A stretch of 64,000 bases of DNA from Undibacterium parvum (GTDB lineage: Bacteria > Pseudomonadota > Gammaproteobacteria > Burkholderiales > Burkholderiaceae_D): assembly GCF_003955735.1 (NCBI RefSeq), contig NZ_CP034464.1, forward strand, positions 2,108,001-2,172,000, in the 5' to 3' direction. Numbering within the stretch: the first letter of the stretch is position 1; each line of letters begins with the position of its first letter. The notes under the pieces were generated by a model. The model was given only the letters and a program-made list of their open reading frames with translations. It did not search any database and was not told the origin of the DNA. A program made the translations under genes and the position numbers. Shown in pieces: positions 9,668 through 43,112 of this stretch.

Positions 9668-9916
9668 ATGAACGATACCACTACCTTCCCCCCTTTCCCT
9701 GACCGTTTGTCAGTTGATCCACGTAGTCCTTACTACAGCGCGGCCGTGTTCGAACACGAAGTCGGCATTAATCTGAACGGCAAAGAACGTTTAGAAGTCG
9801 AAGAATATTGCATCAGCGAAGGCTGGATTAAAGTCCCTGCTGGCAAAGCCGTCGATCGCAAGGGCCAGCCCTTGATGATCAAAGTAAAAGGCACGGTAGT
9901 ACCGTTTTATCGTTAA
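9668..9916 (+). CDS. DUF3297 family protein
   Basis: An 82-residue protein matching the DUF3297 family (PF11730) over its length: LPDRLS-like start (FPDRLSVDPRSPYYS), the HEVGINLNGKER core, CISEGWIKV and a C-terminal KGTVVPFYR. The family is widespread in proteobacteria and has no established function. It lies 24 bases after the EamA gene and may be cotranscribed. A strong terminator follows. Confidence 0.85.
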   Translation: MNDTTTFPPFPDRLSVDPRSPYYSAAVFEHEVGINLNGKERLEVEEYCISEGWIKVPAGKAVDRKGQPLMIKVKGTVVPFYR

Positions 9917-9944
9917 AAACTCGCTGCTCTAAAACCAAATTCAA

Positions 9945-9982
9945 AAAAGGCCAGTATCGCCATGCAGCGATACTGGCCTTTT
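9945..9982 (+). terminator. Intrinsic terminator after DUF3297 gene
   Basis: A 16-bp perfect stem (AAAAGGCCAGTATCGC / GCGATACTGGCCTTTT) with a six-base loop ends in a T run. It lies 28 bases after the stop codon and could act on both strands. Confidence 0.88.
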
Positions 9983-10079
9983 CAATAAGCGGTGTCAGTA
10001 AGCTGTGTAAGTAAGCTTAGTTAGTAAGCGGCTTGACCGGAATCGGGCTGCCCAGAATTTTTCGAATACATCAACAATA

Positions 10080-10117
10080 GAGCCACTTCGATTGGCTTTC
10101 TTTTTGAAGTGGTTCTA
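10080..10117. other. Hairpin in the gap before the FAD oxidase gene
   Basis: In the 380-base gene-free stretch 9917-10296 the only other structure I see is AGAGCCACTTC / GAAGTGGTTCT with a 16-base T-rich loop, followed a few bases later by CTTTTTC. It may be a weak terminator or a regulatory fold; no function is assigned. Confidence 0.35.
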
Positions 10118-10296
10118 GCTTTTTCAATTTCAAAAATTTACTCTCTACTTGCTTTGCAATTGCCAGTTTTTGGCTAGGATAGACGGCCAAACTAGGCTAG
10201 GATTTGTGCGCACGCGCTGAGACAGCGATGGCAATCATACTGCTTTTTTGCGCAAGACAATTGCAGCTAACACCTCACCAACGGAGTAAGAGTTCT

Positions 10297-11586
10297 ATGG
10301 CAACCCAAAGGATCAATTCGTATTATTCAGCAAGCATCAATCAAGTGCATCATTTCCCGCAGCTTGAATCTGATGTCGAGGTCGATGTGGTGGTGATCGG
10401 TGCTGGTTTTACTGGAGTGGCCGCTGCATTAGAATTGGCAGAAAGAGGTAAAAAGGTGGCACTGATCGAAGCCAATAAAGTCGGCTGGGGGCAGTCTGGG
10501 CGCAATGGCGGCCAGGTCACCGGCAGCTTGTCGGGCGAGGGCGCGATGCGCAAACAACTGAGCAGCTTTATGAGCGCAGCTGAGGCCGATGAATTTATCT
10601 GGTTTTTGCGCTGGCGCGGGCACGATATTATCAAAAACCGTATAGAAAAATACGGCATCGCTTGCGACCTCAAATTCGGCCATCTGCACACGGCCTACAA
10701 GCCCAGCCATGTCAAAGAATTGCGCGCTGAGCGTGATCTGGCGCAGCGACGCGGCATGGGCGATCAGGTCGAGCTGATAGAGGCCAAAGACATGGGGCAG
10801 TTTCTCGATACGCCTTTGTATCACGGTGGCCTCTACAATAAAAAGAATATGCATCTGCATCCGCTCAATCTGTGCATAGGCGAAGCGCAGGCGCTGGTAA
10901 GCCTGGGTGGTTTAATTTTTGAAGACTCGCCAGTGACGAATATTGTGCATGGCGACAGACCAGAAGTGCATACTGCCAAAGGGCGCGTGATCGCGCATCA
11001 AGTCTTGCTGGCTGGCGATGTGTATCACAAGCTGGAACAAAAAAAACTAGGCGGCATGATATTCCCCGCCGCCGGTGGCATCATCACCACCGCGCCATTG
11101 GGCAGTTTGGCCAAACAACTCAACCCGAAAGACGTGGCAGTCTATGATTGCCGTTTCGTGCTCGATTACTATCGTATGACGGCCGACGGGCGTTTGTTAT
11201 TTGGCGGCGGTGCCAACTATTCGGGCAAAGAATCACGCGATATTGCGGCCGAATTGCGTCCCTGTGTAGAACGCACCTTCCCGCTCCTGAAAGGGGTGGA
11301 GATAGAGTACGAATGGAGTTGCAATATGGGCATAGTCATCAACCGGGTGCCACAACTGGGTAAGCTCTCGCCCAATGTCTGGTACGCACAAGGCTACTCT
11401 GGCCATGGGGTCGCAACCTCTCATATCGTCGGCGAGATCATGGCCAATGCCATGACTGGCAATAGCACGCGCTTTGATAGTTTTGATCAATTCAAGCATA
11501 TCCGGGTGCCGCTGGGCGATTGGTTTGGCAATCAACTACTGGCTTTAGGCATGCATTACTACCTGTTTATGGAGCGCTTTCACTGA
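10297..11586 (+). CDS. FAD-dependent oxidoreductase, gamma-glutamylputrescine oxidase (PuuB/OrdL) type
   Basis: A 429-residue DAO-family flavoprotein. The FAD-binding signature is at residues ~31-60: VVVIGAGFTGVAAALELAER followed by GWGQSGRNGGQ, the latter typical of PuuB/OrdL proteins that oxidise gamma-glutamylputrescine or related amines. The C-terminal half has GRLLFGGGANYSG and VWYAQGYSGHGVA, which close the FAD site. I chose the ATG at 10297, preceded by GGAG ten bases upstream; an in-frame GTG at 10204 would add an unlikely 31-residue N-terminus. No other putrescine genes are adjacent, so the substrate is inferred only from family. Confidence 0.85.
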   Translation: MATQRINSYYSASINQVHHFPQLESDVEVDVVVIGAGFTGVAAALELAERGKKVALIEANKVGWGQSGRNGGQVTGSLSGEGAMRKQLSSFMSAAEADEFIWFLRWRGHDIIKNRIEKYGIACDLKFGHLHTAYKPSHVKELRAERDLAQRRGMGDQVELIEAKDMGQFLDTPLYHGGLYNKKNMHLHPLNLCIGEAQALVSLGGLIFEDSPVTNIVHGDRPEVHTAKGRVIAHQVLLAGDVYHKLEQKKLGGMIFPAAGGIITTAPLGSLAKQLNPKDVAVYDCRFVLDYYRMTADGRLLFGGGANYSGKESRDIAAELRPCVERTFPLLKGVEIEYEWSCNMGIVINRVPQLGKLSPNVWYAQGYSGHGVATSHIVGEIMANAMTGNSTRFDSFDQFKHIRVPLGDWFGNQLLALGMHYYLFMERFH

Positions 11587-11623
11587 CTCAGCATCCGGCG
11601 GCAGAAGTGGCTGTGGCGGCGCG

Positions 11624-12385
11624 CTAGGGCAGGCGTAAATCTCGTAAACGCTGGTGTAGCTCATCGTCCCAGTCGAGCTTGAGTTGCTGCTTGGCGCACA
11701 GATAGTGTTCGGTAAATACGTCCAGGTAAGCCTCCAGAGTTTGCGCGGCCAGCGTCTCACCAGCCAGCGCCAGACATAAGGCGGCCACCTCAGAGGTACA
11801 CAAATGATCATCGCGCCGTGAACGCCGCAGGCGATAACGCGATAATTGCTCAGGTGCCAAACTGAGCACAGGAAATTGTGCCAGATAAGGGCTTTTTTTA
11901 AAGATCTTGCGCGCCTCTGGCCAGGTCGCATCGAGCAAGATAAACAGCGGCCGCTTGCGCTCCTGATCTGAAACAGTATCGTTTTTTTCGACTGGCAGCA
12001 ACTGCGTCACAACCCGCTCAGGCGCCACAAATTCACCAGGAAACACCACATACGGCTGCCATTGCGGATCGGCCAACAAGCTCAATAAGGCAGGATCAAC
12101 TTCAGTGCGGGCCCAGCCAAAGGCCGTGGTAGCGGGCACCACATCAGCGATCAGCCAGCCGGTATTGCTAGGTTTCAGGGTCTCATGTTCCGCCATGATC
12201 AGACACACCCCGGCACGGGTAGGCACCACAGTACGCAAGCCGCACAGGCAATGACTGAGGATCAGGCGGCAACCAGCACAGCGCTCGCCATGCGGCCCGC
12301 CCCGCGCCAGAAATGGCCGCGTACTACGTAGCAGGCGAGCCGAGCGCAGACGGGATACAGCATGTGGTAAATGGACGTGGGTCAT
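11624..12385 (-). CDS. DTW-domain tRNA-uridine aminocarboxypropyltransferase (TapT/YfiP-like)
   Basis: A 253-residue DTW-domain protein (PF03942). Such enzymes transfer the 3-amino-3-carboxypropyl group of S-adenosylmethionine to uridine in tRNA (acp3U47 in E. coli). It has an N-terminal cysteine cluster, ERCAGCRLILSHCLC (Cys36, 39, 46, 48), a zinc-ribbon-like feature of the family. The name-giving motif appears as LLDATWPEARKI, with Asp-Ala-Thr-Trp as in YfiP-type members, followed by YRLRRSRRDDHLCTSEVAAL. It is convergent with the FAD oxidase gene, 37 bases apart. Confidence 0.85.
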   Translation of the reverse strand: MTHVHLPHAVSRLRSARLLRSTRPFLARGGPHGERCAGCRLILSHCLCGLRTVVPTRAGVCLIMAEHETLKPSNTGWLIADVVPATTAFGWARTEVDPALLSLLADPQWQPYVVFPGEFVAPERVVTQLLPVEKNDTVSDQERKRPLFILLDATWPEARKIFKKSPYLAQFPVLSLAPEQLSRYRLRRSRRDDHLCTSEVAALCLALAGETLAAQTLEAYLDVFTEHYLCAKQQLKLDWDDELHQRLRDLRLP

Positions 12386-12630
12386 GTGAATTTCAACTGT
12401 CGCTTTTATAGCAGAAAACTCTCTTTAAAAAAACAACCTAGTTATATTCACAGGAGGCTTTCCAAAGTTAAGCGTAAAATATAAGGCTGTTTTGTCAGCG
12501 TCTATGCGATCAGGAAATTAGCCCATTTTCCTGTATAGAAGCGCACGTATATGGGCTAAAACCCTGTGATATTTCTCGATTTTAAACGTCGATTACGACA
12601 CTTTTATTTGCATTTATTTTTTTTGACATT

Positions 12631-14268
12631 ATGAATAATTTAAGCATACGTTTCCGCATTACCGCTGGCTTAGCATTGATCTTATTGCTTGCTGTTCTGA
12701 GCGCAGCCAATTCATTGTATCAAAATATTTCGATCAAATATGAGTCTAGCGAAGTCAGTTCTTCCTGGATACCGGCTATAGGAAATTTGGGGCAAATGAA
12801 AGGCTACGTTAGCGATCACTATCTGCTGGTAAGTGACCATATGGCTGGCCGAGGCGCAGTTGATGCGGCTGTTTTTAATAAAGAATTACAAGAGATCGAA
12901 TCCAAACTGAGCAAAGCCACCGAAGTCTATCTAGCGACTTTACTCACTTATACAGCAGAAAATGCAGCCCAAGGCGATGCAGAAAAAGCTTTGGTTGCCG
13001 ATTATCAGCGCAAGCGCGACACTTATTTTAAACTGGTGAAAGCTGGTTTGGCCGATGTCGCTGATACAGCTGCCACGCCTGCCATGGTAGAGATGGCGAA
13101 GCAGGCTTATGCAGAGAAAACACCCGCAGCATTTCGTGAAGCCTACAGCGCAATGGAAGCAATTTTGAGCTTCAATCTAAACGGTACCGCGCTAGCCGCG
13201 GAAACCGTCTCACAAACGGTAAAAAGTGCCGAAAAAGCCATGCTGGCAGCCTTGGCATTTATTATCCTCATCGGGTTTGCGCTGATCTGGGCGATTCCAC
13301 GTAGCGTTGTAGTCCCAGTGCAAGAAGCTGTTTCGCTTGCGCAAAAGATCGCAGAAGGCGACCTGAGCCGCGATGTAATAATCACGAGGCACGACGAATT
13401 GGGGACCTTACTTAGTAATCTCGGTGCCATGCAAAAAAATCTGGCCATGGTGGTATCCAACGTACGTAAAGGATCCGAAGAAGTGGCCAGCGCAAGCGCT
13501 GAAATTGCACAAGGCAACTTAGATCTTTCTTCCAGAACAGAGCAACAAGCAAGTGCACTCGAACAAACCGCTGCGAGCATGGAAGAACTCGGCTCTACCG
13601 TAAAACAGAATGCGGAAAATTCGCGCTTAGCCAATCAACTGGCCGTGAGTGCGTCAAAAATTGCCGTACAGGGCGGTGATGTAGTCGGTCAAGTAGTGGA
13701 GACTATGAGGGGCATCAATAGTTCGTCGCAAAAAATTTCGGACATCATCGGCGTCATTGACGCGATTGCCTTTCAAACCAATATCCTGGCGCTTAATGCG
13801 GCAGTGGAAGCGGCAAGGGCTGGGGAAAACGGACGCGGATTTGCGGTGGTGGCCAGCGAAGTACGTTCATTGGCGGGGCGCAGCGCGGAAGCGGCTCGCG
13901 AAATTAAGATACTCATCAGTGATAGTGTCGAACGCGTAGAGCAAGGCACTATGCTTGTCGATAAAGCAGGTGCGACTATGGAAGAAATCGTGAACTCGAT
14001 TCGCCGGGTGACCGAAATTATGGCAGAAATAAGCGTCGCTAGCGACGAGCAATCTGCAGGGGTAGCCCAAGTGGGCGAGGCAGTAAATCATATGGACGAA
14101 ACGACACAACAAAACGCCGCCTTGGTTGAACAAATGGCTGCAGCTGCGGCCAGTCTGCAATCACAGGCGCAAGATCTAGTGCAAGTGGTCGCCACTTTCA
14201 AGCTAAGTGACGACACAGAATTGCCGCTGTACGCGGTGCATCGTGTAGAGCAGTTGAGCCTACGCTAA
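12631..14268 (+). CDS. Methyl-accepting chemotaxis protein
   Basis: A 545-residue chemoreceptor. Layout: N-terminal membrane helix (~residues 8-28), a ~175-residue periplasmic four-helix-bundle sensor, second membrane helix (~203-222), HAMP domain (~225-275) and a cytoplasmic signalling coiled coil. The conserved hairpin tip is [20 protein letters not shown], followed by [17 protein letters not shown]. Methylation-type Gln/Glu pairs flank it ([16 protein letters not shown]). No CheR-binding pentapeptide is seen at the C-terminus. It stands alone; 12386-12630 upstream is AT-rich and I see no clear promoter in it. Ligand unknown. Confidence 0.95.
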
Positions 14269-14328
14269 TTGAGTCAGTGTTAAGGCCTGTCTCATTTTTA
14301 CTATCACTATAGGCTTGCAGCCAGTCAG

Positions 14329-14442
14329 CTAGTCAAGCTTGATCGTAAAACTCGCCAATTGGCGCACCAGCTCGTCGTCACGAAAGGGCAGTGCAGCAAC
14401 AAAATGCGCCGCACCGCCAATATACTGGGTAGTATCACGCCG
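14329..14442 (-). pseudogene. Possible C-terminal coding remnant
   Basis: Reading leftward, a frame without start encodes RDTTQYIGGAAHFVAALPF and then RDDELVRQLASFTIKLD before a TAG. The composition is protein-like and unlike random antisense. It is in a different frame from the FMN reductase that ends at 14435, overlapping it by a few bases. It could be the debris of a deleted gene or a frameshifted extension. I recognise no family. Confidence 0.3.
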
Positions 14443-14974
14443 CCGGCAAGACCGTCAAGCTACTCAGCGCCTGCAGCAGTTGCTGCTCCAGATCGGGGTT
14501 TTTGAGGGTGCCAAGCGCCACATCAAAATTCTCATAAAAGCTAGGGATAGCCAGACTGGCCTTGACCTGGCCGCCAAAAAACGGCGCTGAATTAGTCGCT
14601 GCCGCCAACACGCTGGCACCTCCGCGCGCACCAGGCGAAGTGGACAGTAACACCACAGGCTTACCCTGAAAAACTTTGGAATTAATCCGAGAGCACCAAT
14701 CGAAAAGATTTTTATAGGCGGCGCTATACGAGCCATTGTGCTCGGCAAAAGAAATCAGCAAGGCATCGCTACCAGCGATTTTTTCCAGGAAGGCCAGTGC
14801 CAAGGCCGGCTGTCCCAACTGCTCTTCTTTGTCGACACTGAATAAGGGTAATTCGTAATCGTTCAGATCTAGCACTTCGACCTGCGCAACAGGCAGCAAG
14901 CTGGCGGCATGCTTCACCAATTGCAGATTGATCGATTTTTTACTACTACTGGCAGCGAAGGCTAACAATTTCAT
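14435..14974 (-). CDS. NADPH-dependent FMN reductase family protein
   Basis: A 179-residue flavodoxin-like protein (PF03358). The FMN phosphate loop is at the N-terminus (MKLLAFAASSSKKSINLQLV), and the second flavin-contact region SFAEHNGSYSAAYKNLFDWC matches the PEYNGS-type motif of ChrR/SsuE-like reductases. The third is LSTSPGARGG. Such enzymes reduce FMN, quinones or chromate with NAD(P)H. The gene starts next to a gap shared with the porin gene and is transcribed away from it. Confidence 0.88.
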   Translation of the reverse strand: MKLLAFAASSSKKSINLQLVKHAASLLPVAQVEVLDLNDYELPLFSVDKEEQLGQPALALAFLEKIAGSDALLISFAEHNGSYSAAYKNLFDWCSRINSKVFQGKPVVLLSTSPGARGGASVLAAATNSAPFFGGQVKASLAIPSFYENFDVALGTLKNPDLEQQLLQALSSLTVLPAA

Positions 14975-15060
14975 TTGTGTTTTCTCAAAGTTAAGGACCC
15001 GATATCAGGAATGGTGGCGGGCGAAATCATCATTGTAATTGATGCATGCAATTACAGCAT

Positions 15061-15137
15061 GCCGCCAACGCGCATATCCCATGCGGGCTGCAGGGCAGGG
15101 TGCCTGAAGAAGGGCATGGAATATGAGCGGTGGCAGT
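15061..15137. repeat. REP-like repeat A, copy 3
   Basis: Arms GCCAACGCGCATATCCCATG and GGCATGGAATATGAGCGGTG. It lies in the 390-base gene-free gap 14975-15364 between the FMN reductase and porin genes. The rest of that gap holds a G-rich segment with an imperfect hairpin around 15235-15265 and the porin ribosome site; nothing else is evident. Confidence 0.7.
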
Positions 15138-15364
15138 GCCTTGTGTTGCGCATCGCCTACACACCACTAGCTAAAACCCATAACGACAGCTAACTGAAAG
15201 CTAGGCTTGCCTACCATGGAGGCTGATTGCTAGGGGGGGCGCGCTTGATCAAAGCGAGCCCTAGGCCTTGCGGGATTTTTTTGTATCTCAAAAAAATGTG
15301 CTCAAGGCTTCCCGCCTGAGCAATTCACAAGCACTAACTTGACTACTTTTGGAGACTCTCAAAA

Positions 15365-16417
15365 ATGAAAAAAAGCCTGATCTGCGCTGCGGCGCTCAGT
15401 ATGATTGCCAGCCTGGCACATGCACAATCGAATGTGACTATTTACGGTTTGATCGATGCCAATCTGACCTACAACAATAACGCGAGCGCGGCCAAAGATG
15501 GCCAGTTCAAACTCAATAGCGGTGGTATGAATACCTCCCGTCTGGGTTTTCGTGGTACCGAAGATTTAGGCAATGGTTTGAAGGCAGTGATGCAACTGGA
15601 AAGCGGTATCTTGCTCGACACTGGCGCCACTGACGGTGAAATGTTTGGTCGTCAAGCCAATGTCGGCCTGCAAGGCGAATTCGGTAAGCTGATCGCTGGT
15701 CGTTCATATAGCACGACCTATGATTTCATCTTGCCTTTCGATCCTATGGGTTATGCGCCTCAGTATTCCTGGGCGACTTCGGCCGGTGCGACTGGCTCAC
15801 GTAAAGACGGCATGCTGACCGGCACTTCAAATATGCTGAAATACCAATTCGACAGCAGCAGCTTCAAACTCGGTGCGACTTATGGTCTGGGTGAAGTGGC
15901 AGGCGATAACGCCTCTAGCGCCAAGCTGGCTTTAGCGGCTGCGTATATGGCTGGCCCATTTGCCGCGACACTGGCGTTTGATCAAGTTAATGGTGTGACG
16001 ACCGCTGCTGGTGCCATGGATAAGGCCAAGACTATCCACGCTGCTGCCAACTATCAACTCGACAGCGTTAAATTGTATGCAGCGTATCGCAATTACAAGA
16101 AGACTCTGGCGAGCGGCGCAGCCGATTTGCGCAGCGATTTATTCTGGGGCGGCGTCGACTTTAAGCTTAGCCCGGTATGGACACTGACTGGCGCTTACTA
16201 CTATCAGGATATCAAGAACGTAGCAGCGGCAGCCGATGCTGATCCTAGTATGTTCGTCGCGCGTGCCAAATACGCTTTATCCAAGCGTACCGACATCTAT
16301 GTCACCGGTGCCTATGCCAAGGGTCGCAACGACAAGATAGTCGGTGTGTCACGCGATGATGCGGCTTTTGGTACTAGCCAAAATTCTTTCACAGTAGGTA
16401 TGCAACACCGCTTCTAA
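15365..16417 (+). CDS. Outer membrane porin (Gram-negative porin family)
   Basis: A 350-residue porin of the betaproteobacterial type (PF13609). A signal peptide (MKKSLICAAALSMIASLAHA) precedes the mature start QSNVTIYGLIDANLTY, the first beta strand. Alternating beta strands continue, with the SRLGFRGTEDLGNGLKA and FGRQANVGLQGEFGKLIAGR segments diagnostic of this family, and the protein ends in an aromatic residue (MQHRF), the outer-membrane assembly signal. A GGAG site precedes the ATG. It probably forms a trimeric diffusion channel. A strong terminator follows. Confidence 0.95.
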   Translation: MKKSLICAAALSMIASLAHAQSNVTIYGLIDANLTYNNNASAAKDGQFKLNSGGMNTSRLGFRGTEDLGNGLKAVMQLESGILLDTGATDGEMFGRQANVGLQGEFGKLIAGRSYSTTYDFILPFDPMGYAPQYSWATSAGATGSRKDGMLTGTSNMLKYQFDSSSFKLGATYGLGEVAGDNASSAKLALAAAYMAGPFAATLAFDQVNGVTTAAGAMDKAKTIHAAANYQLDSVKLYAAYRNYKKTLASGAADLRSDLFWGGVDFKLSPVWTLTGAYYYQDIKNVAAAADADPSMFVARAKYALSKRTDIYVTGAYAKGRNDKIVGVSRDDAAFGTSQNSFTVGMQHRF

Positions 16418-16434
16418 GCTCAGGCTATGAAGTC

Positions 16435-16474
16435 AAAAGCCAGCCCTTGCGCTCTGCAGGGCTGGCTTTTTTTT
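16435..16474 (+). terminator. Intrinsic terminator of the porin gene
   Basis: A 13-bp perfect stem (AAAAGCCAGCCCT / AGGGCTGGCTTTT) with a ten-base loop and a T8 tail lies 18 bases after the porin stop. Confidence 0.92.
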
Positions 16475-16483
16475 GCCCCCGGC

Positions 16484-16780
16484 TCAGATCTGAGCGATCA
16501 CGTCTGGCAAAGCCTTCGACCAATGGTAAATCTCTACACTCTGGCGCAAACCTTGCTGCCAGAACGGATCACTCTGAAATGCCGCCTCGACCGCAGCTTT
16601 GTTATCAGCCTCAAGTATCCACAGCGCGCCGACTGGCGTCTCGCCCAACTCATGACGTAAAGAGCCAGCGACCTTAATCTGCGCTTGCCGTTCAGCCAGC
16701 CAGTCTATGTGTTGCTGCAAAAATTCAGCTCTGATTGCGCCCTGGCCTGGCAGGTCGGTAAAACGTACGACGAACAGCAT
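16484..16780 (-). CDS. YciI family protein
   Basis: A 98-residue protein with the YCII-related domain (PF03795), a small ferredoxin-like alpha/beta fold. Seen here: the N-terminal strand MLFVVRFTDLPG, a conserved HIDWL helix (residues ~24-28), AGSLRHELGETPVGALWILEA and a C-terminal DPFWQQG with VEIYHW. The conserved His/Asp are thought to form a putative active site in the family, but function is unproven. It is convergent with the porin gene. Confidence 0.88.
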   Translation of the reverse strand: MLFVVRFTDLPGQGAIRAEFLQQHIDWLAERQAQIKVAGSLRHELGETPVGALWILEADNKAAVEAAFQSDPFWQQGLRQSVEIYHWSKALPDVIAQI

Positions 16781-16900
16781 GACTATCCTCTGCTTAAATA
16801 AGTTTGAACTTACACAAAAATGGCTAGATAGGATAACCCAAGCTTGGGCGCTTGTCTGTCTGTGCTAAGCTAATGCATCCTCTTTTTCCTAGCCTCTGTC

Positions 16901-17680
16901 ATGTGCCAGTTACTCGCAATGAATTGCAATACCCCGACCGACATCATGTTCAGTTTTACCGGCTTTGCGCTGCGTGGCGGCAATACCGACGAGCATAAAG
17001 ATGGCTGGGGCATTGCGTTTTTTGAGGGCAAGGGCGTGCGCCATTTTGTCGATCATCAGGCCGCGGTCGATTCGCCGATTGCGGGTCTGATCAAGAGTTA
17101 TCCGATTAAATCGAAGAATGTGATTGCGCATATCCGTAAGGCGACGCAGGGCGTGGTTAGCCTGGAAAATTGCCATCCTTTTGTGCGCGAATGCTGGGGC
17201 GTTTACTGGGTATTTGCCCACAATGGCGACCTGAAAAATTTCGCGCCTGTGCTAGATGCTGCTTACCATACCGTCGGCAGCACTGACAGCGAATGGGCCT
17301 TTTGTTATGTGATGCAAGAGATGCGCAAACACTTTGGTGATAGTATGCCGCCACTGGCTGAGATTAGCCGCTTCCTGCGCCAGATTTGTAGCGAGATTGC
17401 CGCCTACGGCACCTTCAATATGACGCTCTCAAACGGCGAGGCGCTGTTCGTCCATTGCTCGACCAATTTGCACTATATCGTGCGCCAGTATCCATTCTGC
17501 GAAGCGACTTTATCGGACGAAGATATCGCAATCGATTTTGCGGCAGTCACCACGCCGCAAGATAAAGTGGCGCTGATCGCGACCGCGCCGCTGACCTGCA
17601 ATGAACATTGGACGCCATTTGGGGCCGGCGAATTTAAGGTCTTTGTCGATGGCGATGTGCTGGCCGCGGAGGCCGCATGA
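16901..17680 (+). CDS. Class II glutamine amidotransferase (YafJ-like)
   Basis: A 259-residue N-terminal-nucleophile amidotransferase. The protein starts Met-Cys2 (MCQLLAMNCN); Cys2 becomes the catalytic N-terminus after removal of Met. Further family motifs are LRGGNTDEHKDGWGIAFFEG, VIAHIRKATQG and NCHPFVRECWGVYWVFAHNG. It has no synthetase partner domain, like YafJ of E. coli, whose acceptor is unknown. Its stop overlaps the start of the downstream LysR gene by four bases, implying coexpression. Confidence 0.9.
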   Translation: MCQLLAMNCNTPTDIMFSFTGFALRGGNTDEHKDGWGIAFFEGKGVRHFVDHQAAVDSPIAGLIKSYPIKSKNVIAHIRKATQGVVSLENCHPFVRECWGVYWVFAHNGDLKNFAPVLDAAYHTVGSTDSEWAFCYVMQEMRKHFGDSMPPLAEISRFLRQICSEIAAYGTFNMTLSNGEALFVHCSTNLHYIVRQYPFCEATLSDEDIAIDFAAVTTPQDKVALIATAPLTCNEHWTPFGAGEFKVFVDGDVLAAEAA

Positions 17681-18606
17681 CTAAGCCAAAACAAGATCAG
17701 CTCGACACCCATCTGCTGCGGGTTTTGCACACCTTATTAAGTGAGCGCAGCGTAACCCGCGCTGCCATCAAACTCGGGCAGTCACAACCGGCTGTTAGCA
17801 ATACCCTCAAGCGCCTGCGCGAGATTACTGGCGACGCCATCCTGGTGCGCAGTAAAAACGGCATGACCGTGACGCTGCGCGGCGAAGAATTATTTGTGCT
17901 GGCCAAGCAGGGTTTGCAGATCATAGACAGCATCGCCAACCCGCCACCACTGTTTGTTCCCGCCAGCACCCAGCGCGTATTTAATTTGGGCGCACCGGAT
18001 TATTTAAGTGTCTTGCTGATCCCCGCAATTATTGAAAAAATTCGCACTCAGGCACCGCATGCCAGTCTGGTCGTACATGCCTTGAATGCCGGTTTTGATT
18101 ATGTGGCAGCGCTAGAAAACGGTACGCTCGATTGCGTCATCGGCAACTGGCCGGATCTGCCTGCGCATCTACATCTGACCCAATTATTTGAAGATGAAGT
18201 AGTCTGCATGATTCACCAAAATCATCCGGTGGTGAAACACGGTTTGTCGCTCAAGCATTATGTAGAGATGGAACATCTGGCACCGTCCCCGTACACCTTG
18301 GGACATCGCAATATCATCGACAATGCGCTTACGGCACTCGGTTTAAAACGCAAGATACACATGACCATCCCGTATTTCGGCATGGTGCCGCAGATCCTTG
18401 CCAAGACCGATCTGATCTTTACCACTAGCCGCAGCTTCGCCCTGCAATGCGCCAAAGACTGGCCGATCGCGGTGCTGCCGGTACCGCTGGCGATACCGAA
18501 GATGCAGTTCTTTATGCTCTGGCATGAGCGCGTTCACGCTGCCGCCGAAGTGCAGTGGTTACGCCGCATCGTGGCAGAAGCGGCCACGGCAGTGGTGGCG
18601 GTTTAA
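17677..18606 (+). CDS. LysR-family transcriptional regulator
   Basis: A 309-residue LysR protein of the NodD/PcpR-like subgroup: HTH at residues ~9-67 (LLRVLHTLLSERSVTRAA, GQSQPAVSNTLKRLRE) and effector domain with FNLGAPDYLSVLLIPAI and GTLDCVIGNWPDLP. Its ATG overlaps the stop of the amidotransferase gene, an unusual same-strand coupling that suggests joint regulation. A repeat-filled gap follows. Confidence 0.92.
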   Translation: MTKPKQDQLDTHLLRVLHTLLSERSVTRAAIKLGQSQPAVSNTLKRLREITGDAILVRSKNGMTVTLRGEELFVLAKQGLQIIDSIANPPPLFVPASTQRVFNLGAPDYLSVLLIPAIIEKIRTQAPHASLVVHALNAGFDYVAALENGTLDCVIGNWPDLPAHLHLTQLFEDEVVCMIHQNHPVVKHGLSLKHYVEMEHLAPSPYTLGHRNIIDNALTALGLKRKIHMTIPYFGMVPQILAKTDLIFTTSRSFALQCAKDWPIAVLPVPLAIPKMQFFMLWHERVHAAAEVQWLRRIVAEAATAVVAV

Positions 18607-18629
18607 TCTGGCGAATTTTAAAAGTGGCA

Positions 18630-18703
18630 AGCCCAGCGCGCATATTCCATGCGGCTCTCAGGCCATGCAGGCTGGGAACCCGCATGGAATATGCGCGCTG
18701 GCA
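18630..18703. repeat. REP-like repeat A, copy 4 (best conserved)
   Basis: Arms CAGCGCGCATATTCCATGCG and CGCATGGAATATGCGCGCTG are exact inverted copies over 20 bp, with a spacer of about 30 bases. It forms the left outer arm of the large imperfect palindrome 18630-19390. Confidence 0.85.
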
Positions 18704-18719
18704 GGGTGCTTGAAAAAAT

Positions 18720-18935
18720 CGGGTTTTGCGGTCGCCTTCTTTTGCTTACATTTTCTTGGCTTCGCCAAAAAAGGTATGCCAAAAAAGGCGCCGCAAAGTC
18801 GCTGTCCCTGCGGGATACCCAATTGTGCAGGTCGTAAAATGGGAAAAGTTCGAAACTCGCTACGCTCAAACACGAACCTTTCTAATCCATTTTCCGCCCC
18901 GCACAATTGGCAGCGCCACATGCGAATTCGAGTCA
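18720..18935 (+). repeat. Repeat module C, left copy
   Basis: The stretch from GCAAAGTCGCTGTCCCTGCG through TTGTGCAGGTCGTAAAATGG to CGCCACATGCGAA is matched, inverted and diverged, at 19045-19222. It contains long apparent reading frames but they are low-complexity by-products of the repeat. The following spacer 18932-18962 has three GTCAAAA words spaced 12 bases apart. Confidence 0.65.
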
Positions 18936-19044
18936 AAAGCAGAGTCAAAACCCAAGTCAAAAGCACCGGATTGCCGTAGCTTGATGTGTGTTGGCATTGC
19001 GTTTGCAGAGGAATGGAAGTCGCACTTCGGATGTGTTGACCTTC

Positions 19045-19222
19045 GCCTTTCGCATGTGGCGCTGCCGCTTGTGCATGGCAGAAAATGGATTAGGAATGAA
19101 GCTTGTTTGAGCGCAGCGAGTTTGCTTCATTCCCCATTTTTTGACCTGCACAGGCGGGCACCCGAAGGGCAGCGACTTTGCGTCGCCTTCTTTTGCTTCC
19201 GTTTCTTGGCGAAGCAAGAAAA
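19045..19222 (-). repeat. Repeat module C, right (inverted) copy
   Basis: Reverse-complement match of 18780-18935: TTCGCATGTGGCGCTGCC, AAAATGGATTAGGAATGAAG, GACCTGCACAGGCGGGCACC and GCAGCGACTTTGCGTCGCC face their left-copy counterparts. Similarity is interrupted but runs over about 150 bases. Confidence 0.65.
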
Positions 19223-19278
19223 GGGAGTAGCCGCCGGTCTACCACCGGCCAGCAATCTCACATCAACGAAAGAAGTAA
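19193..19278 (+). repeat. Intergenic repeat module B, copy 2
   Basis: TTGGCGAAGCAAGAAAAGGG, GCCGGTCTACCACCGGCC and CAATCTCACATCAACGA match the module at 2503-2585. As there, a REP-like A copy follows after about 40 bases. Confidence 0.7.
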
Positions 19279-19315
19279 AAAAACGACCTAGCAACCGCAA
19301 ACCAAAAACAGCATG

Positions 19316-19390
19316 CCGCCAGCGCGCATATTCCATGCGGCTTACAGGCCTATGTGCTTGAAGAAGCGCATGGAATATGGGCGCTGGCGC
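19316..19390. repeat. REP-like repeat A, copy 5
   Basis: Arms CCAGCGCGCATATTCCATGC and GCATGGAATATGGGCGCTGG. It is the right outer arm of the large imperfect palindrome. No gene is present in 18607-19540. Confidence 0.82.
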
Positions 19391-19540
19391 TGCCTGTTTT
19401 GAGATACCATGCGACGCAATAGATGAAGCCCATTGCGCCCTACGATTACGCCTTACCGGGTTGGCAAGGCAGGTAAATGGAATTTCACGTGGTGCGACAT
19501 ACATGATTACACTACGCTAATCGCACCTACGCCGAATAGG

Positions 19541-19855
19541 TTAAGCATCTGGTTCTGTAATAATTTCTTTTGGTTGAAACGGATTATTTACAGCCATTGC
19601 TCTCAGGATAAGCGGTGCAGAAATTCCAATATTGACAGCTAAGACAGGCTTTAACACAATGTCAGACGATACATACATAAATGCAAGTCCGCCGCCAAGT
19701 ACAGGCATGATAAAAAATGAAAACCAATAAAGCCAATCTTTTAGATCTGGTCTCTGTGATTTTGGCAGCTTGTGTAGTTCTGCGAGTTCTAAAAATTTAG
19801 TTGCAAAAGCGCCAAATACAGCAAATAAAACTGGTGATACAAACGAATCTGTCAT
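19541..19855 (-). CDS. Small membrane protein of unknown function (3 predicted helices)
   Basis: A 104-residue protein I do not recognise. Three hydrophobic segments are visible, at about residues 6-24 (SPVLFAVFGAFATKFLELA), 42-64 (WLYWFSFFIMPVLGGGLAFM) and 68-90 (VLKPVLAVNIGISAPLILRA), joined by a charged loop (HKLPKSQRPDLKD). It begins one base after the stop of the winged-helix-like gene at 19857, so the two form a tight operon. Base composition is clearly more AT-rich than the neighbours, suggesting acquisition by transfer. Confidence 0.6.
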   Translation of the reverse strand: MTDSFVSPVLFAVFGAFATKFLELAELHKLPKSQRPDLKDWLYWFSFFIMPVLGGGLAFMYVSSDIVLKPVLAVNIGISAPLILRAMAVNNPFQPKEIITEPDA

Positions 19856-19856
19856 T

Positions 19857-20126
19857 TTAATCGCCCCTATTTTTAAATGCCGAAATCAGTCTTTTAAAAG
19901 GACTTGTTTGCTGGCGATGTTTTTCTCTAGATGCAAATAAGGATTCGCCTTTGGTGTTTGGCACAGATGACATTACTACGCGATCACCTTTGCTAACAAT
20001 CACTTTACGTACGGTGTCAGTCGATACTTTTGTTTCGTTAGAAATTCCACTGATCGTCCTCCACATAAATTTTGGATTTTCTAATGCTGTCTGAATTTTT
20101 TGCTCGTCGGAATTTTCTCTTTTCAT
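19857..20126 (-). CDS. Small winged-helix-like protein of unknown function
   Basis: An 89-residue basic protein. The middle (residues ~19-66) reads like a winged helix-turn-helix: FMWRTISGISNETKVSTDTV would be helices 1-3, with recognition helix VRKVIVSKG, and the SSVPNTKGESLFASR segment a beta wing. The tail is rich in Lys/Arg/Gln. AAGGA lies six bases before the ATG. It is the first gene of a two-gene unit with the membrane protein at 19541 and lies 76 bases downstream of metH on the same strand. AT-rich compared with neighbours. Function unknown. Confidence 0.6.
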   Translation of the reverse strand: MKRENSDEQKIQTALENPKFMWRTISGISNETKVSTDTVRKVIVSKGDRVVMSSVPNTKGESLFASREKHRQQTSPFKRLISAFKNRGD

Positions 20127-20202
20127 ATAAATCCTTAAAAATCAAATAAAAACAACAATTGCCTATTTGTTTCTTTGCGATATTTGCTTCAATTTACTCC
20201 CA

Positions 20203-23952
<3,750 letters not shown>

Positions 23953-23966
23953 GATTTCTGTCTCTA

Positions 23967-24007
23967 AAGCAAAAAACCCGATCAAACACTCGCAGGCGGG
24001 ATCGGGT
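23967..24007 (-). terminator. Terminator-like hairpin in the metH leader (candidate attenuator)
   Basis: On the metH strand, CCCGATC (24007 downward) pairs with GATCGGG across a 16-base GC-rich loop and is followed at once by TTTTTT, the form of an intrinsic terminator, ending about 20 bases before the metH start codon. A possible TATAAT lies at 24055-24060 upstream. This order (promoter, terminator, gene) suggests transcription attenuation. I could not recognise a known S-adenosylhomocysteine, SAM or cobalamin riboswitch core. Confidence 0.55.
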
Positions 24008-34664: not shown

Positions 34665-37370
34665 ATGGATCCGAAAAAATTGTTAGCAACCGCCCGTACA
34701 GAATTTCTCATCGCTGTTTCTGAGGCGACGCAAAAGACTGTTCCGCGTTGTCTTGAAGATTTATTCAAGAGGGCCGATGCGAGTTACTCGTCTGCTGAGC
34801 AAGGTCGCTTGTTGAATACGCGCTCTATCCTGCAAGAACAAGCAAATTCATTGAAGCAGCAAATGAGCAAGACTATGGAAGTTTTGCTAACGCGAAGTTT
34901 TCAAACAACTTATAACACCTATCGACCTAGCGCTGCTTTCGCCCTCGATGCAACCAGTCTTTCACTGGTTGATGCCACTGCGTTCGAAGACGAACTCCGG
35001 ATTGACGATGTCACCAAACGTTTTAGAAGTGAAGCCGAAGAGCAATTGCGGGATTTAAATATTCGCATAGCATTATTGTTTGAGCAAGACGTTATCAAAG
35101 AGCGGGAAAATCCATTTCGCCCCTATCTATTAGCGCGCTGTATTTCCACCACGGTAGAAAATTTTGGACTTAGTACTGATATCAGCACTTGTCTGATCGA
35201 ACAATTCACAGAGAATTTCGCCGCGCATATTGCGCCAATTTACAATGCGGTTAACTCCCATTTGGCGAAGCACGGCATCGCAGCCCAATTACAGCTAAAA
35301 ATAAAGAAATCGCCGACGCAATCTGCTGCAAGCCAAGCAAGCACCGAACATGGACACGAATCCGACGAATTAGAGCAAGATTTTCGTAATAGCCAGCAGC
35401 ATGGGTTCGAGAACAGTCGACCAGGTTTTGGATCTGACTATCAAAATCAACAGTCACAACAGCAACATGCACAACCACAAAGTCAATATCAGAATATGGC
35501 CCAAAGCGACTACCCAAATGATGGCGGTAGAAGCAGAGTTGATCAACTATTAGACAACGTGCGAGGTAAAACCTCGGGCATGATGCCGGCGCACGCGATG
35601 TCGCAAGAGCACGGATCTGCAGTCCCATCAAGGTCGGCCAAACAATCTGGATGGTTAGGTAGTGGGCAAGCGATGGGCGGCGTGCTGAGAAAGTTTTTTG
35701 GCAGCGATAGAAATAATTCAGAAGTTTCTTCAGGCTCTGCTCATAGCCCTGTGGGATCCTTTTCGCAAGCTGGAGCCAGTACTCATCAAACATCGGGAGA
35801 TGCGCAATTTTCAGGCAGCACCGGTAACGCATCTACATATTCAGAGCCTATGAGAAATACAGGTAATGAAGTTTTTGGTGAGGCGAGAGCTAGCAATAAT
35901 GAAAGTGCTGCTGCGGGCGGATTATCCTATGGTGGCGGGCAACTTGCGAGTACCGTACATGGAATGCAAAGGGCGCATACGCCAGTTACTGCCGAGATGT
36001 ACGATAGTCAGGGAGATGTTCGTAATCTGATTCTCGAGCAAAGAGCTGCCCTGAATGAAATGACGAAAAATGTCGATGAATTGATGACCATCGATATTGT
36101 TGCAATGCTGTTTGAGTTTATTTTGCGTGACAATCAGGTGCCGGCTGAAGTGCGAGCCCAGTTGGGACGCTTGCAATTTATGGTATTAAAAATTGCATTG
36201 CGTGATACTACTTTGCTGACGCAAAAAGGACATCCAGCGCGTATGTTGGTCAATCGCATAGGCTCAATTTCTTTGGGGTTGAAGCAATTAGATCCGAGCG
36301 GAGTCCAGATAACAGAAGAAATTTGCCGCATTGTTGAAACTTTGCTGCACGACGAAAGTGAGAATCCTCAACTATTCTCAAAAATGCTCGATGAATTCGA
36401 TGCGTTTATTGCGAGGGAATTGCGTGCTGGCGATAAAAATGTTGAGCGTACCGTCGAAGCCGTCGAGCAAGTCCAGAACCGCACTTTAAGGTTTGCGCAC
36501 ACGACCGCTCAAATGAGCGAAGCGCTCTCAGGATTAACTATTGACGCGTATTTGCAGGAATTTTTGCAAAGTGTTTGGGTGCTTGCCGTTGAGATGGCTG
36601 ATCGCCAAGACGAAAAACGCGCACGCCGATATCGTCTATTAGTACCGGATTTGCTTTGGAGCATAGTGCCAAAACTCAAGGAAGATGATCGCACTCAACT
36701 ATTTGCCTTGTTGCCGATCATCTTAAATACTTTAAGAGAAGGTCTTGCTTCGATCGCATGGGACGCTACGCGCCAAAAAGATCTGATGAATTGGTTGGTA
36801 GATGCTCATACTAGCGCCTTACGTGCTAGCCACTCGGCAACCTTGGTTCATATTCCTTCGCTACCATCCATTCATGAGCATTTTGAAATATTCGTAAATA
36901 CCCCGGAAGCCAGTCCGAATTCTGAATTTACTTCCAGCATAGTGTTGGATTCACGTAAATTTCTAGAGGAAGCGATTAAGGAGCTGGATATCAAGGTGCA
37001 AATGCTAGATCAAGTATTTGATCGAGAACTTCCAAGCGAAAGTGCTGAAGATGCCTCAGCCGCAGAATCAGATTCGGATTCGGATAGCTTGGATAGTATT
37101 GAAGCGCGGCTTCGTAGTGGCGTCGCAATGGAAATTAACTTGGGTGGCAAACCTAGCATGGGGCAACTCAAATGGGTTGATCCCAGTGTTAGTAATCTAG
37201 TTCTTAGTCTCGATGGACAAGATCAGCCATCGGTGGTGAGTGTCCGCATGTTTCGTCGTATGATTGCACACGGGCGCGTCAGGTTTATAGAAAGCGAACC
37301 CCTATTTGAGCGCGCAGTTCAATCACTTCTTAAGTCAGCTGACAACATAGACCAAACGGCTTTAGCATAA
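34665..37370 (+). CDS. DUF1631 family protein
   Basis: A 901-residue cytoplasmic protein of DUF1631 (PF07793), a betaproteobacterial/gammaproteobacterial family sometimes misnamed thymidine phosphorylase. Seen here: N-terminal helical region (~1-220), a long low-complexity Gln/Ser/Gly/His linker (~225-440), a conserved helical block (ILEQRAALNEMTKNVDELMT onward), and a C-terminal segment with the EINLGGKPSMGQLKWV strand and FRRMIAHGRVRFIESEPLFE, which looks PilZ-like. AAGGAAA just before 34665 decides the start over the ATG at 34650. Function unknown. Confidence 0.85.
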   Translation: MDPKKLLATARTEFLIAVSEATQKTVPRCLEDLFKRADASYSSAEQGRLLNTRSILQEQANSLKQQMSKTMEVLLTRSFQTTYNTYRPSAAFALDATSLSLVDATAFEDELRIDDVTKRFRSEAEEQLRDLNIRIALLFEQDVIKERENPFRPYLLARCISTTVENFGLSTDISTCLIEQFTENFAAHIAPIYNAVNSHLAKHGIAAQLQLKIKKSPTQSAASQASTEHGHESDELEQDFRNSQQHGFENSRPGFGSDYQNQQSQQQHAQPQSQYQNMAQSDYPNDGGRSRVDQLLDNVRGKTSGMMPAHAMSQEHGSAVPSRSAKQSGWLGSGQAMGGVLRKFFGSDRNNSEVSSGSAHSPVGSFSQAGASTHQTSGDAQFSGSTGNASTYSEPMRNTGNEVFGEARASNNESAAAGGLSYGGGQLASTVHGMQRAHTPVTAEMYDSQGDVRNLILEQRAALNEMTKNVDELMTIDIVAMLFEFILRDNQVPAEVRAQLGRLQFMVLKIALRDTTLLTQKGHPARMLVNRIGSISLGLKQLDPSGVQITEEICRIVETLLHDESENPQLFSKMLDEFDAFIARELRAGDKNVERTVEAVEQVQNRTLRFAHTTAQMSEALSGLTIDAYLQEFLQSVWVLAVEMADRQDEKRARRYRLLVPDLLWSIVPKLKEDDRTQLFALLPIILNTLREGLASIAWDATRQKDLMNWLVDAHTSALRASHSATLVHIPSLPSIHEHFEIFVNTPEASPNSEFTSSIVLDSRKFLEEAIKELDIKVQMLDQVFDRELPSESAEDASAAESDSDSDSLDSIEARLRSGVAMEINLGGKPSMGQLKWVDPSVSNLVLSLDGQDQPSVVSVRMFRRMIAHGRVRFIESEPLFERAVQSLLKSADNIDQTALA

Positions 37371-37605
37371 AGTACGATCTTAAAAAAGCCATCCTTATAC
37401 ATAGACCCCTTTTTTGCATTCTCCAGCCCTAGTTGTTGAAGACCCCATAAATCAATTCAACAAAAGCTTGCCAATCCTAGTTAGGCTTTGCTATAGTTCG
37501 CCTCCCGCTGAAGAGCGGGGCGAAATGAAGGAAATAAGGCAGACGAATTAACCTTAGGTTTGAATGAAGATGTGAATCAAATTCAAGCGCTAATAAAACA
37601 AGGGG
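37371..37605. other. Gap between DUF1631 gene and rRNA promoter
   Basis: No gene seen. A short hairpin CCCGCT-gaag-AGCGGG lies at about 37504-37519. AT-rich sequence immediately upstream of the promoter at 37606 could serve as an UP element. Confidence 0.4.
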
Positions 37606-37634
37606 TTGACGAGTAGAAGGAAATGCCGCATAAT
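37606..37634 (+). promoter_or_regulatory. rRNA operon promoter
   Basis: TTGACG (37606-37611) and CATAAT (37629-37634) are separated by exactly 17 bases, a good sigma-70 promoter. The leader to 16S is about 310 bases. I saw no second promoter of equal quality. Confidence 0.8.
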
Positions 37635-37738
37635 CTCATCTCTCTGCTGCTTACAAACAAAACGCTTTGTAGCAATCTGGCAGAAACGCTTTGCAGTCGG
37701 TGAGAATCGATAGTGACGCGCCAAAAAACAGAAGACAG

Positions 37739-37750
37739 ATCTTTAACAAT
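37739..37750 (+). promoter_or_regulatory. boxA antitermination signal, leader
   Basis: GATCTTTAACAA matches the boxA core (CTTTAACAA) bound by NusB/NusE to keep polymerase elongating through rRNA genes. Confidence 0.75.
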
Positions 37751-37752
37751 TA

Positions 37753-37776
37753 ACAGTCAATAAATGTGGGCACTTG
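37753..37776 (+). other. 16S processing stem, left strand
   Basis: The stretch with AGTCAATAAATGTGGGCACTT is an imperfect reverse complement of AAGTGTCCACACTTATTGACT after 16S (about 39510-39530), forming the long stem cut by RNase III. Confidence 0.65.
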
Positions 37777-37952
37777 ATAAAGAGCGCGGCTAATTACTTC
37801 GGTAGTTAGTTCAACTTAAAAAATATCAAATGTTCGCAAAAGTAATAAATAGGATGCTTGAGAACGCAAGTTCAAAAGTAGCCTGTCAGTTATTTGAGTG
37901 AGCGACACCGTTCGCAAGAACGGAGTTCAGAAATGAACACAAAACAGAGATT

Positions 37953-39488
<1,536 letters not shown>

Positions 39489-39581
39489 GAGTGCGCTACA
39501 AGTTAAGTGTCCACACTTATTGACTGTTAATGATAAAGAACGTAGCGATGGAGCGATTCATCGGTACCGAGTTCCCGAATT

Positions 39582-39657
39582 GGGGGTTTAGCTCATCTGG
39601 TAGAGCACCTGCTTTGCAAGCAGGGGGTGAACGGTTCGATCCCGTTAACCTCCACCA
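39582..39657 (+). tRNA. tRNA-Ala(TGC)
   Basis: A 76-nt cloverleaf including encoded CCA. Anticodon TGC in the loop TTTGCAA; the alanine identity pair G3-U70 is present in the acceptor stem. It is the first tRNA of the spacer. Confidence 0.97.
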
Positions 39658-39686
39658 TTTACGTAGTAAAGAAGTCGTAAATAAGT

Positions 39687-39763
39687 GGGGCTGTAGCTCA
39701 GCTGGTTAGAGCACCGTGTTGATAACGCGGGGGTCGTTGGTTCGAGTCCAACCAGCCCTACCA
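39687..39763 (+). tRNA. tRNA-Ile(GAT)
   Basis: A 77-nt cloverleaf including encoded CCA, anticodon GAT in the loop TTGATAA, acceptor GGGGCTG with CAGCCCT. It lies 29 bases after tRNA-Ala. Confidence 0.97.
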
Positions 39764-39858
39764 GTAAAATGGAGTGGGAAGAAAAAACAAATGTGAGTAG
39801 CGCGCGCGCTATTGAGATTTGTTCTTTCGAAACGAAAGCAAAGTATCAAGTAAGACCG

Positions 39859-39869
39859 TTCTTTAACAA
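39859..39869 (+). promoter_or_regulatory. boxA antitermination signal, 16S-23S spacer
   Basis: TTCTTTAACAA matches boxA and repeats the leader element. The remaining spacer to 23S (39870-40229) has no gene; its end carries the left strand of the 23S processing stem. Confidence 0.75.
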
Positions 39870-40229
39870 TTGAGAAGAAGTAAAGTAGAAATAATCAAAA
39901 TTATTTCTGTGAAGGAAATTAATAACGACAGTTATTAACGATAATTCATGGAAGGGTTGTGATTGTATCAAACAAACATAAAATGTATTAAAAAGAGTTT
40001 GAAAAGCACTGTAGCAATACAGGGTTTTAGAAAATCAAATATCTTGAGATACGGCAAACGCTAAAGTAATACTCATAGTAATAAGAACTATAGCGATTTT
40101 TTGGTGATGAACCTGAGCGTAGGTGTTACTGGAAAAATCATCTGGCTCTGCCAGTGATTTTGAACTAGCACCACATCAAAGTAGATTTTTACTTTGATGT
40201 GAACAATCAGACGCCAGAATCTAAAGTTA

Positions 40230-43112
<2,883 letters not shown>

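Follow-up and report, generated by a model that had tools for sequence, protein, structure and literature searches.

A mobile gene pair for a winged-helix and a three-helix membrane protein beside metH of Undibacterium parvum, a possible conflict module

We analysed a stretch of 64,000 nucleotides from Undibacterium parvum (contig NZ_CP034464.1, positions 2,108,001 to 2,172,000 of the forward strand; the whole stretch is called the window) and concentrated on two small genes downstream of metH. Both are intact, co-oriented open reading frames (ORFs) on the minus strand: the first (19857–20126) encodes a winged-helix protein of 89 residues and the second (19541–19855) a three-helix membrane protein of 104 residues. 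Stop and start codons are one base apart (TAA-A-ATG), in agreement with the original prediction, which had been made from the letters alone. That prediction assigned a ribosome site to the first gene only. This is wrong, because the Shine-Dalgarno-like AAGGAT of the winged-helix gene (20131–20136, minus strand) is joined by an AGGGG (19864–19868, minus strand) that lies within the end of the first gene, eight bases before the ATG of the second. The pair is indeed AT-richer than its surroundings: its GC content is 37.5%, whereas that of the window is 51.2% and that of metH 53.8%. When windows of 586 bases were slid in steps of 50, 5 of the 1269 had a value as low as this. The upstream neighbour metH (20203–23985, minus strand) is the insertion flank and lies outside the module, its stop codon being separated from the pair by 76 bases (20127–20202). 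No promoter- or terminator-like site between 19300 and 20400 rose above shuffled expectation. Both ORFs are real genes and not chance ORFs, since homologues at E ≤ 0.001 exist for each: 56 for the membrane gene, itself included, and 159 for the winged-helix profile (own protein counted; 120 were listed). Records of the membrane homologues include Chromobacterium, Vibrio, Enterobacter, Photobacterium and Candidatus Scalindua.

The helices of the membrane protein are predicted at residues 2–29, 41–63 and 70–89 (model pLDDT, the predicted local distance difference test, 84.9), as expected for the small multi-helix membrane protein first proposed. Residues 28–40 form a positively charged loop and the C-terminal residue is an alanine. 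Invariant residues in alignment A1 include G15, L22, E26, R35, D37, Y43, W44, N75, G77, S79, A80, P81 and R85.

The model of the 89-residue protein (me7bbebdab8e0) has three helices, two wing strands and a long helix. The defining order of a winged helix, three helices and then a two-strand wing, is found both in this model and in the alignments to solved structures, where matches to Z-alpha folds tied with other winged helices. Conserved residues fall in WRT, SSxPS, G and LYTTR motifs. The putative recognition helix (36–45) is mostly variable except for the buried V39 and I43, and hardly any variation is seen in the wing and WRT turn. The predicted fold is thus upheld; the nucleic-acid binding proposed with it fared less well, as residue conservation lends no support to binding of DNA. 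We also considered the C-terminal helix as an amphipathic membrane binder and rejected it (residues 74–87, mean z of 0.07 over shuffles, 120 sequences); the C-terminus is merely basic (mean +3.2 over residues 71–89).

Neither protein has a match at cut-off in Pfam or NCBIfam or a good match in PHROGs. Searches of PADLOC-DB 2023 gave a single match for 11 winged-helix proteins (E 0.0099, the best of either family) and a single match for 57 membrane proteins (E 0.066). The description as a cassette that these libraries do not recognise therefore stands, and the two genes are found together elsewhere. A contig scan that covered 84,980 species, within the limits of its peptide patterns, yielded 13 loci, nine of them proteobacterial by title (L003–L011). 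The pair itself was counted at 13 independent loci, namely those nine, L002 (a Vibrio europaeus plasmid), L020 (the sole viral-contig locus, same DNA as L027), L065/L089 and the window, that is, 12 proteobacterial loci and the window; L022, L033 and a second copy in G540 (stretch L030) were left out of the counts. At all 13 the membrane gene is immediately preceded by the winged-helix gene, with the order unchanged and a gap of −4 to +4 bp (for L003, using a start chosen by alignment), so that two small co-oriented adjacent genes, the layout of type II toxin-antitoxin systems, are found throughout. L065 was found by the winged-helix profile alone and its neighbour is a diverged membrane homologue (hhalign E 5e-19), which makes it a fair test of the pairing. 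The membrane gene of L011 has a broken reading frame. Where both genes are intact (12 loci), the more conserved partner is the membrane protein, in 62 of 66 comparisons (mean identity 52.7%, compared with 38.3% for the winged-helix protein), and the identities of the two partners correlate (r 0.77).

The pairing is not universal. Four Chloroflexi loci (L012–L015) and L031 have a membrane homologue, 30–35% identical to the protein in the window (alignment A4), with no winged-helix ORF seen adjacent to it. Distant winged helices also occur within longer proteins (L018, L019, L067–L071 and L073). Those of L067–L071 and L073 have about 222 residues, with apparent membrane segments (by eye) and a related winged helix at the C-terminus (hhalign E 3e-8); the proteins of L068, L069 and L070 are identical. 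We rejected them as a fusion of both partners because their membrane part is unrelated to the membrane protein of the pair (probability 0.3%, four rows). A vWA-like gene (by eye) adjoins the protein in L067, L068 and L070, the loci viewed with neighbours. The L018 protein (1468–1998) has one apparent transmembrane segment and a C-terminal winged helix and adjoins a peptidoglycan-binding-like membrane protein (by eye). The weak winged-helix matches in L018 and L019, which have another architecture, and in L072 were dropped, as were weak membrane-profile matches within two transporter-like proteins, 395 and about 420 residues long (L025, L026).

The distribution of the pair is patchy. The winged-helix gene went undetected in all 42 other genomes of the genus, some of them incomplete drafts, and in 97 other relatives overall; the membrane gene went undetected in 146 genomes of other relatives, a sample that overlaps the 97. 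In a 398-genome sample of the phylum, the genome of the window was the only clear carrier, two weak matches having another architecture. Further samples, with the genome at the centre of the search counted, held clear carriers at 2/394, 2/244 (plus seven weak), 1/178 and 1/150, and a Chloroflexi-type search at 2/301. Identity between distant groups is high. Among 43 genomes of the genus, 39 gave a match to the C-terminal part of metH, and the pair is seen at none of the 29 other metH loci compared (L036–L064, 28 with a 3′ flank). The sequence after metH differs between species groups, some of which share a gene there. Because the winged-helix gene was detected in no other genome of the genus, the flank differs between groups and the GC content is low, we conclude from these comparisons that the pair is an insertion at a variable metH 3′ flank, the accessory position originally suggested. 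Neither homology to a housekeeping pair nor conservation of the pair at this locus in all relatives, either of which would have spoken against that suggestion, was encountered. As a separate observation, many small unrelated ORFs lie in the flanks of L036–L064, possibly an insertion hotspot.

Two copies have integron-like features. The DNA common to 2-kb stretches of L009 (Methylophilus) and L010 is confined to one 650-bp block, 85% identical, that reaches from about 36 bases before the pair to about 30 bases after it. Integron attC sites follow the hairpin pattern RYYYAAC...GTTRRRY. An attC-like element of 70 bases in L009 (10310–10379, GCCCAAC...GTTAGAC) begins 19 bases after the stop codon and folds better as the bottom strand (−26.7 versus −11.3 kcal/mol for the top); its hairpin has a stem-spacer-stem shape, as is typical of attC. 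The version in L010 (10309–10345) has 37 bases and is short, perhaps decayed. The background of the bare pattern is about 0.03 per 400 bases and strand, and no attC-like site was found within 400 bases of the pair at the other 11 of the 13 loci, the window included. The pair in L009 thus looks like an integron cassette. In L010 (8723–11044) it sits inside a flippase-like gene (by eye), with a 359-bp stretch duplicated on both sides (91% identical). Phage-defence cassettes are reported in work on Vibrio integrons (PMC12409362); the pair resembles them in being a small two-gene cargo, with the attC-like hairpin of L009, and differs in that most of its loci lack such a site and that its own defence role is putative. 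The best-supported conclusion from the comparisons above is the core one, that the winged-helix and three-helix membrane proteins form a conserved, horizontally moving two-gene unit.

Some neighbours of the pair belong to conflict systems. The genes immediately upstream in L004 (Alkalimonas) and L020/L027 encode IetA (E 7e-88 and 2e-85) and IetS (2e-45 in both). In these genomes the pair comes after ietS on the strand of that gene. The distance is 46 bases in L004; in L020/L027 the first possible start of the pair ORF overlaps the last base of ietS. Judged from this spacing, ietAS and the pair possibly form one operon. We searched for IetS with a single profile, PDLC02197. Full-length matches were found in 2 of 12 pair genomes, both directly beside the pair; there was no match in the genome of the window and no full-length match in 10 of the 12. 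Weak partial matches occurred in G534, G535 and G1369, and 6 of 14 control genomes also gave matches. In L027 the IetAS-pair cluster is directly followed, on the opposite strand, by an ORF of 3224 residues (9822–19496).

Elsewhere, a Peptidase_C1 gene follows the pair in L007, and L011 has a DUF6602 / NucC-like nuclease (5e-20) and then AbiJ_NTD5 and Abi_C. In L002 DUF4238 precedes the pair and DUF262 (PADLOC Orf5 / HEC-06) follows it. Upstream of the pair L005 has integrase-like ORFs (by eye) together with a HEPN-like gene that falls just short of the Pfam cut-off, and LmuA / LmuB at 2.8 kb downstream; L003 has a phage integrase nearby and an 863-residue neighbour without a family match. No defence gene or peptidase was recognised adjoining the pair in the window, L003, L006, L008, L009, L010 or L089. 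In the Chloroflexi, the membrane homologue of L012 has a metallo-β-lactamase-fold gene on one side and a C25 peptidase on the other, and a C1 peptidase lies at a greater distance (L013 and L014 are alike by eye). That of L015 comes after a C14 caspase, and that of L031 is flanked by an LCAT-like hydrolase and by a CHAT-nSTAND1 protein. The caspase-like C14, C25 and CHAT families form one clan.

We favour, at about even odds, the reading that the pair is a mobile two-gene module of a sensor and a membrane effector that acts in biological conflict, most likely against phages. We place such a conflict module at the inner membrane because the pair is mobile and has the neighbours described, because its soluble partner diverges faster, and because a related winged helix recurs in apparent membrane proteins. 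The phage-defence link suggested before stays conjectural. At least 5 of the 13 pair loci have a known defence gene placed within 5 kb (IetAS twice, Lamassu, DUF262/Orf5 and the L011 nuclease). We compared 79 proteins from these loci (ORFs of at least 150 residues within 5 kb of the pair, PADLOC at E ≤ 1e-15) with 105 proteins from 14 stretches chosen at random, a pair of them on each of seven contigs that also carry these loci. The families seen were 25 of 43 in the pair set and 25 of 49 in the control set. The contigs of L006, L007 and L008 cannot supply 5 kb to either side of the pair, and the position used for the pair in L089 was about 190 bases off. At least one of the 14 control stretches has a placed defence hit, a type I restriction-modification operon (L084, placed by its methylase motif); in the pair set one match that was MzaA-like and three to mad3 could not be placed, nor could those to PDC-M68B, REase_II, mad2 and mad3 in the control set. 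Two points weigh against the favoured reading. Fisher's test gives p values of 0.08, 0.21 and 0.42 for one, two and three positive control stretches, and no defence gene was recognised beside the pair of the window itself. Enrichment of defence genes is unproven because the control is this small; the neighbourhood is suggestive, no more.

If the favoured reading is correct, the membrane protein would be the effector, oligomerizing or opening in the inner membrane. By the charge rule it would have its N-terminus outside, and its three helices would present the invariant E26, N75 and R85, with RPDLKDxxYW as a cytosolic loop and an invariable C-terminal tail whose last residue is alanine. The winged-helix protein may be the faster-evolving sensor or adaptor, binding the membrane protein on the cytosolic side through WRT / SSxPS / G / LYTTR, and would either keep the effector off or switch it on upon a trigger; candidate triggers would be nucleic acids, proteins of a phage and protease events. 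Stand-alone pairs such as that in the window would detect the trigger themselves. Elsewhere the pair, or its membrane half, may have been appended to protease systems that gate it (IetAS; papain-like; C14, C25 and CHAT in Chloroflexi). This protease link is the boldest part of the proposal: S8 subtilase, C1 and C14/C25/CHAT proteases occur near the membrane family in different lineages and could act on it, and the link is not needed for stand-alone copies.

Among other explanations, a toxin-antitoxin or addiction pair survives best, although we consider it unlikely. The winged-helix protein would neutralize or repress a small membrane toxin and so stabilize its locus, with no sensing of phages. 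Two small adjacent or overlapping genes that are patchy and mobile, with a putative nucleic-acid-binding fold upstream and a membrane protein downstream, would suit such a pair, and IetAS, its occasional neighbour, is itself described as a toxin-antitoxin pair in one account (PMC5006074). However, autoregulation is not supported, because the recognition helix mostly varies where the wing and WRT turn hardly do and none of the 25 longest of 35 inverted repeats has both arms in the 76-base gap. In addition, the Chloroflexi membrane homologue lacks an adjacent winged-helix ORF.

We think it rather improbable that the pair has a role outside conflict, in which a small regulator and a membrane protein would serve in stress, in transport or in homeostasis of the envelope and would be mobile by chance. 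The control comparison would allow this, isolated copies follow housekeeping genes (metH in the window, an htpG-like gene by eye in L009) and the membrane protein is strongly conserved. Such a role accords poorly with the extreme patchiness across the relatives and the five samples (one or two carriers per 150–394 genomes), the high identity between distant groups and the integron-like cassette of L009. Least probable is that the pair is a membrane adaptor or anchor for protease systems (IetAS, papain-like, caspase-like) and no effector, isolated copies being stranded or having a distant partner: both full-length IetS matches do lie directly beside the pair, and peptidases adjoin or lie near it or its membrane half in L007 and L012 (Peptidase_C1), L012 and by eye L013 and L014 (C25), L015 (C14) and L031 (CHAT-nSTAND1), but 10 of the 12 pair genomes, that of the window included, keep the pair without a full-length match to PDLC02197.

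The pair has partial counterparts among known systems. It follows ietS in two genomes and differs from IetAS in having neither ATPase nor protease; with no match to PDLC02197 in its genome, the pair of the window does not qualify as an IetAS system. Small systems of a sensor and a transmembrane effector, for example CBASS with a transmembrane effector, share the soluble partner, the small multi-helix membrane protein, the adjacent co-oriented genes and the mobility, whereas the pair has no cyclase, ATPase or known sensor domain and its best PADLOC match is the weak one given above. From Z-alpha and other winged helices (PKZ, ADAR1; IclR, MarR) the protein of the pair is set apart by its conserved WRT/SS/LYTTR residues, its variable recognition helix and the lack of a Pfam match above cut-off. 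Caspase/CHAT/STAND conflict systems have a partial counterpart in the Chloroflexi membrane homologues among C14, C25 and CHAT-nSTAND1 genes; these copies differ from the pair in lacking the winged-helix ORF. In the portions of two accounts of those systems that bear on it (PMC7159879, PMC8195603), the small membrane protein is not named.

Literature searches found no description of the pair, which does not prove that there is none. A wider proposal, doubtful as a whole, is that the pair is a portable immune effector module, undescribed so far, in which a membrane protein with a C-terminal alanine tail that is read out would be held by a winged-helix guard. One cassette would be traded between stand-alone use, integrons and protease-triggered systems (IetAS in Gammaproteobacteria; the membrane half with C14/C25/CHAT in Chloroflexi), and different protease folds would converge on one output that perforates the membrane, as different proteases do on gasdermins. 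If true, this would add a two-protein membrane effector family that is absent from PADLOC-DB 2023 and small enough for integrons, and IetAS would gain a possible downstream membrane partner; the mechanism of IetAS is still called undescribed in a passage of a 2023 paper (PMC9958689). Even if its role is not defence, the pair is a conserved mobile gene pair in distant bacteria that is nameless in the libraries searched.

On the far side of the pair lies an imperfect palindromic repeat with nested inverted repeats (18615–19405, no strand assigned), the 'repeat cluster' of the original prediction. The repeat is present; it is not specific to the pair, because it has 170 matches in the genome, on both strands, and is an interspersed palindromic repeat family. 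Further low-GC stretches of the window are found at 12301–13036, 37251–38036 and 39501–40536, the last of which contains tRNA-Ala and tRNA-Ile, an arrangement known from ribosomal RNA operons.
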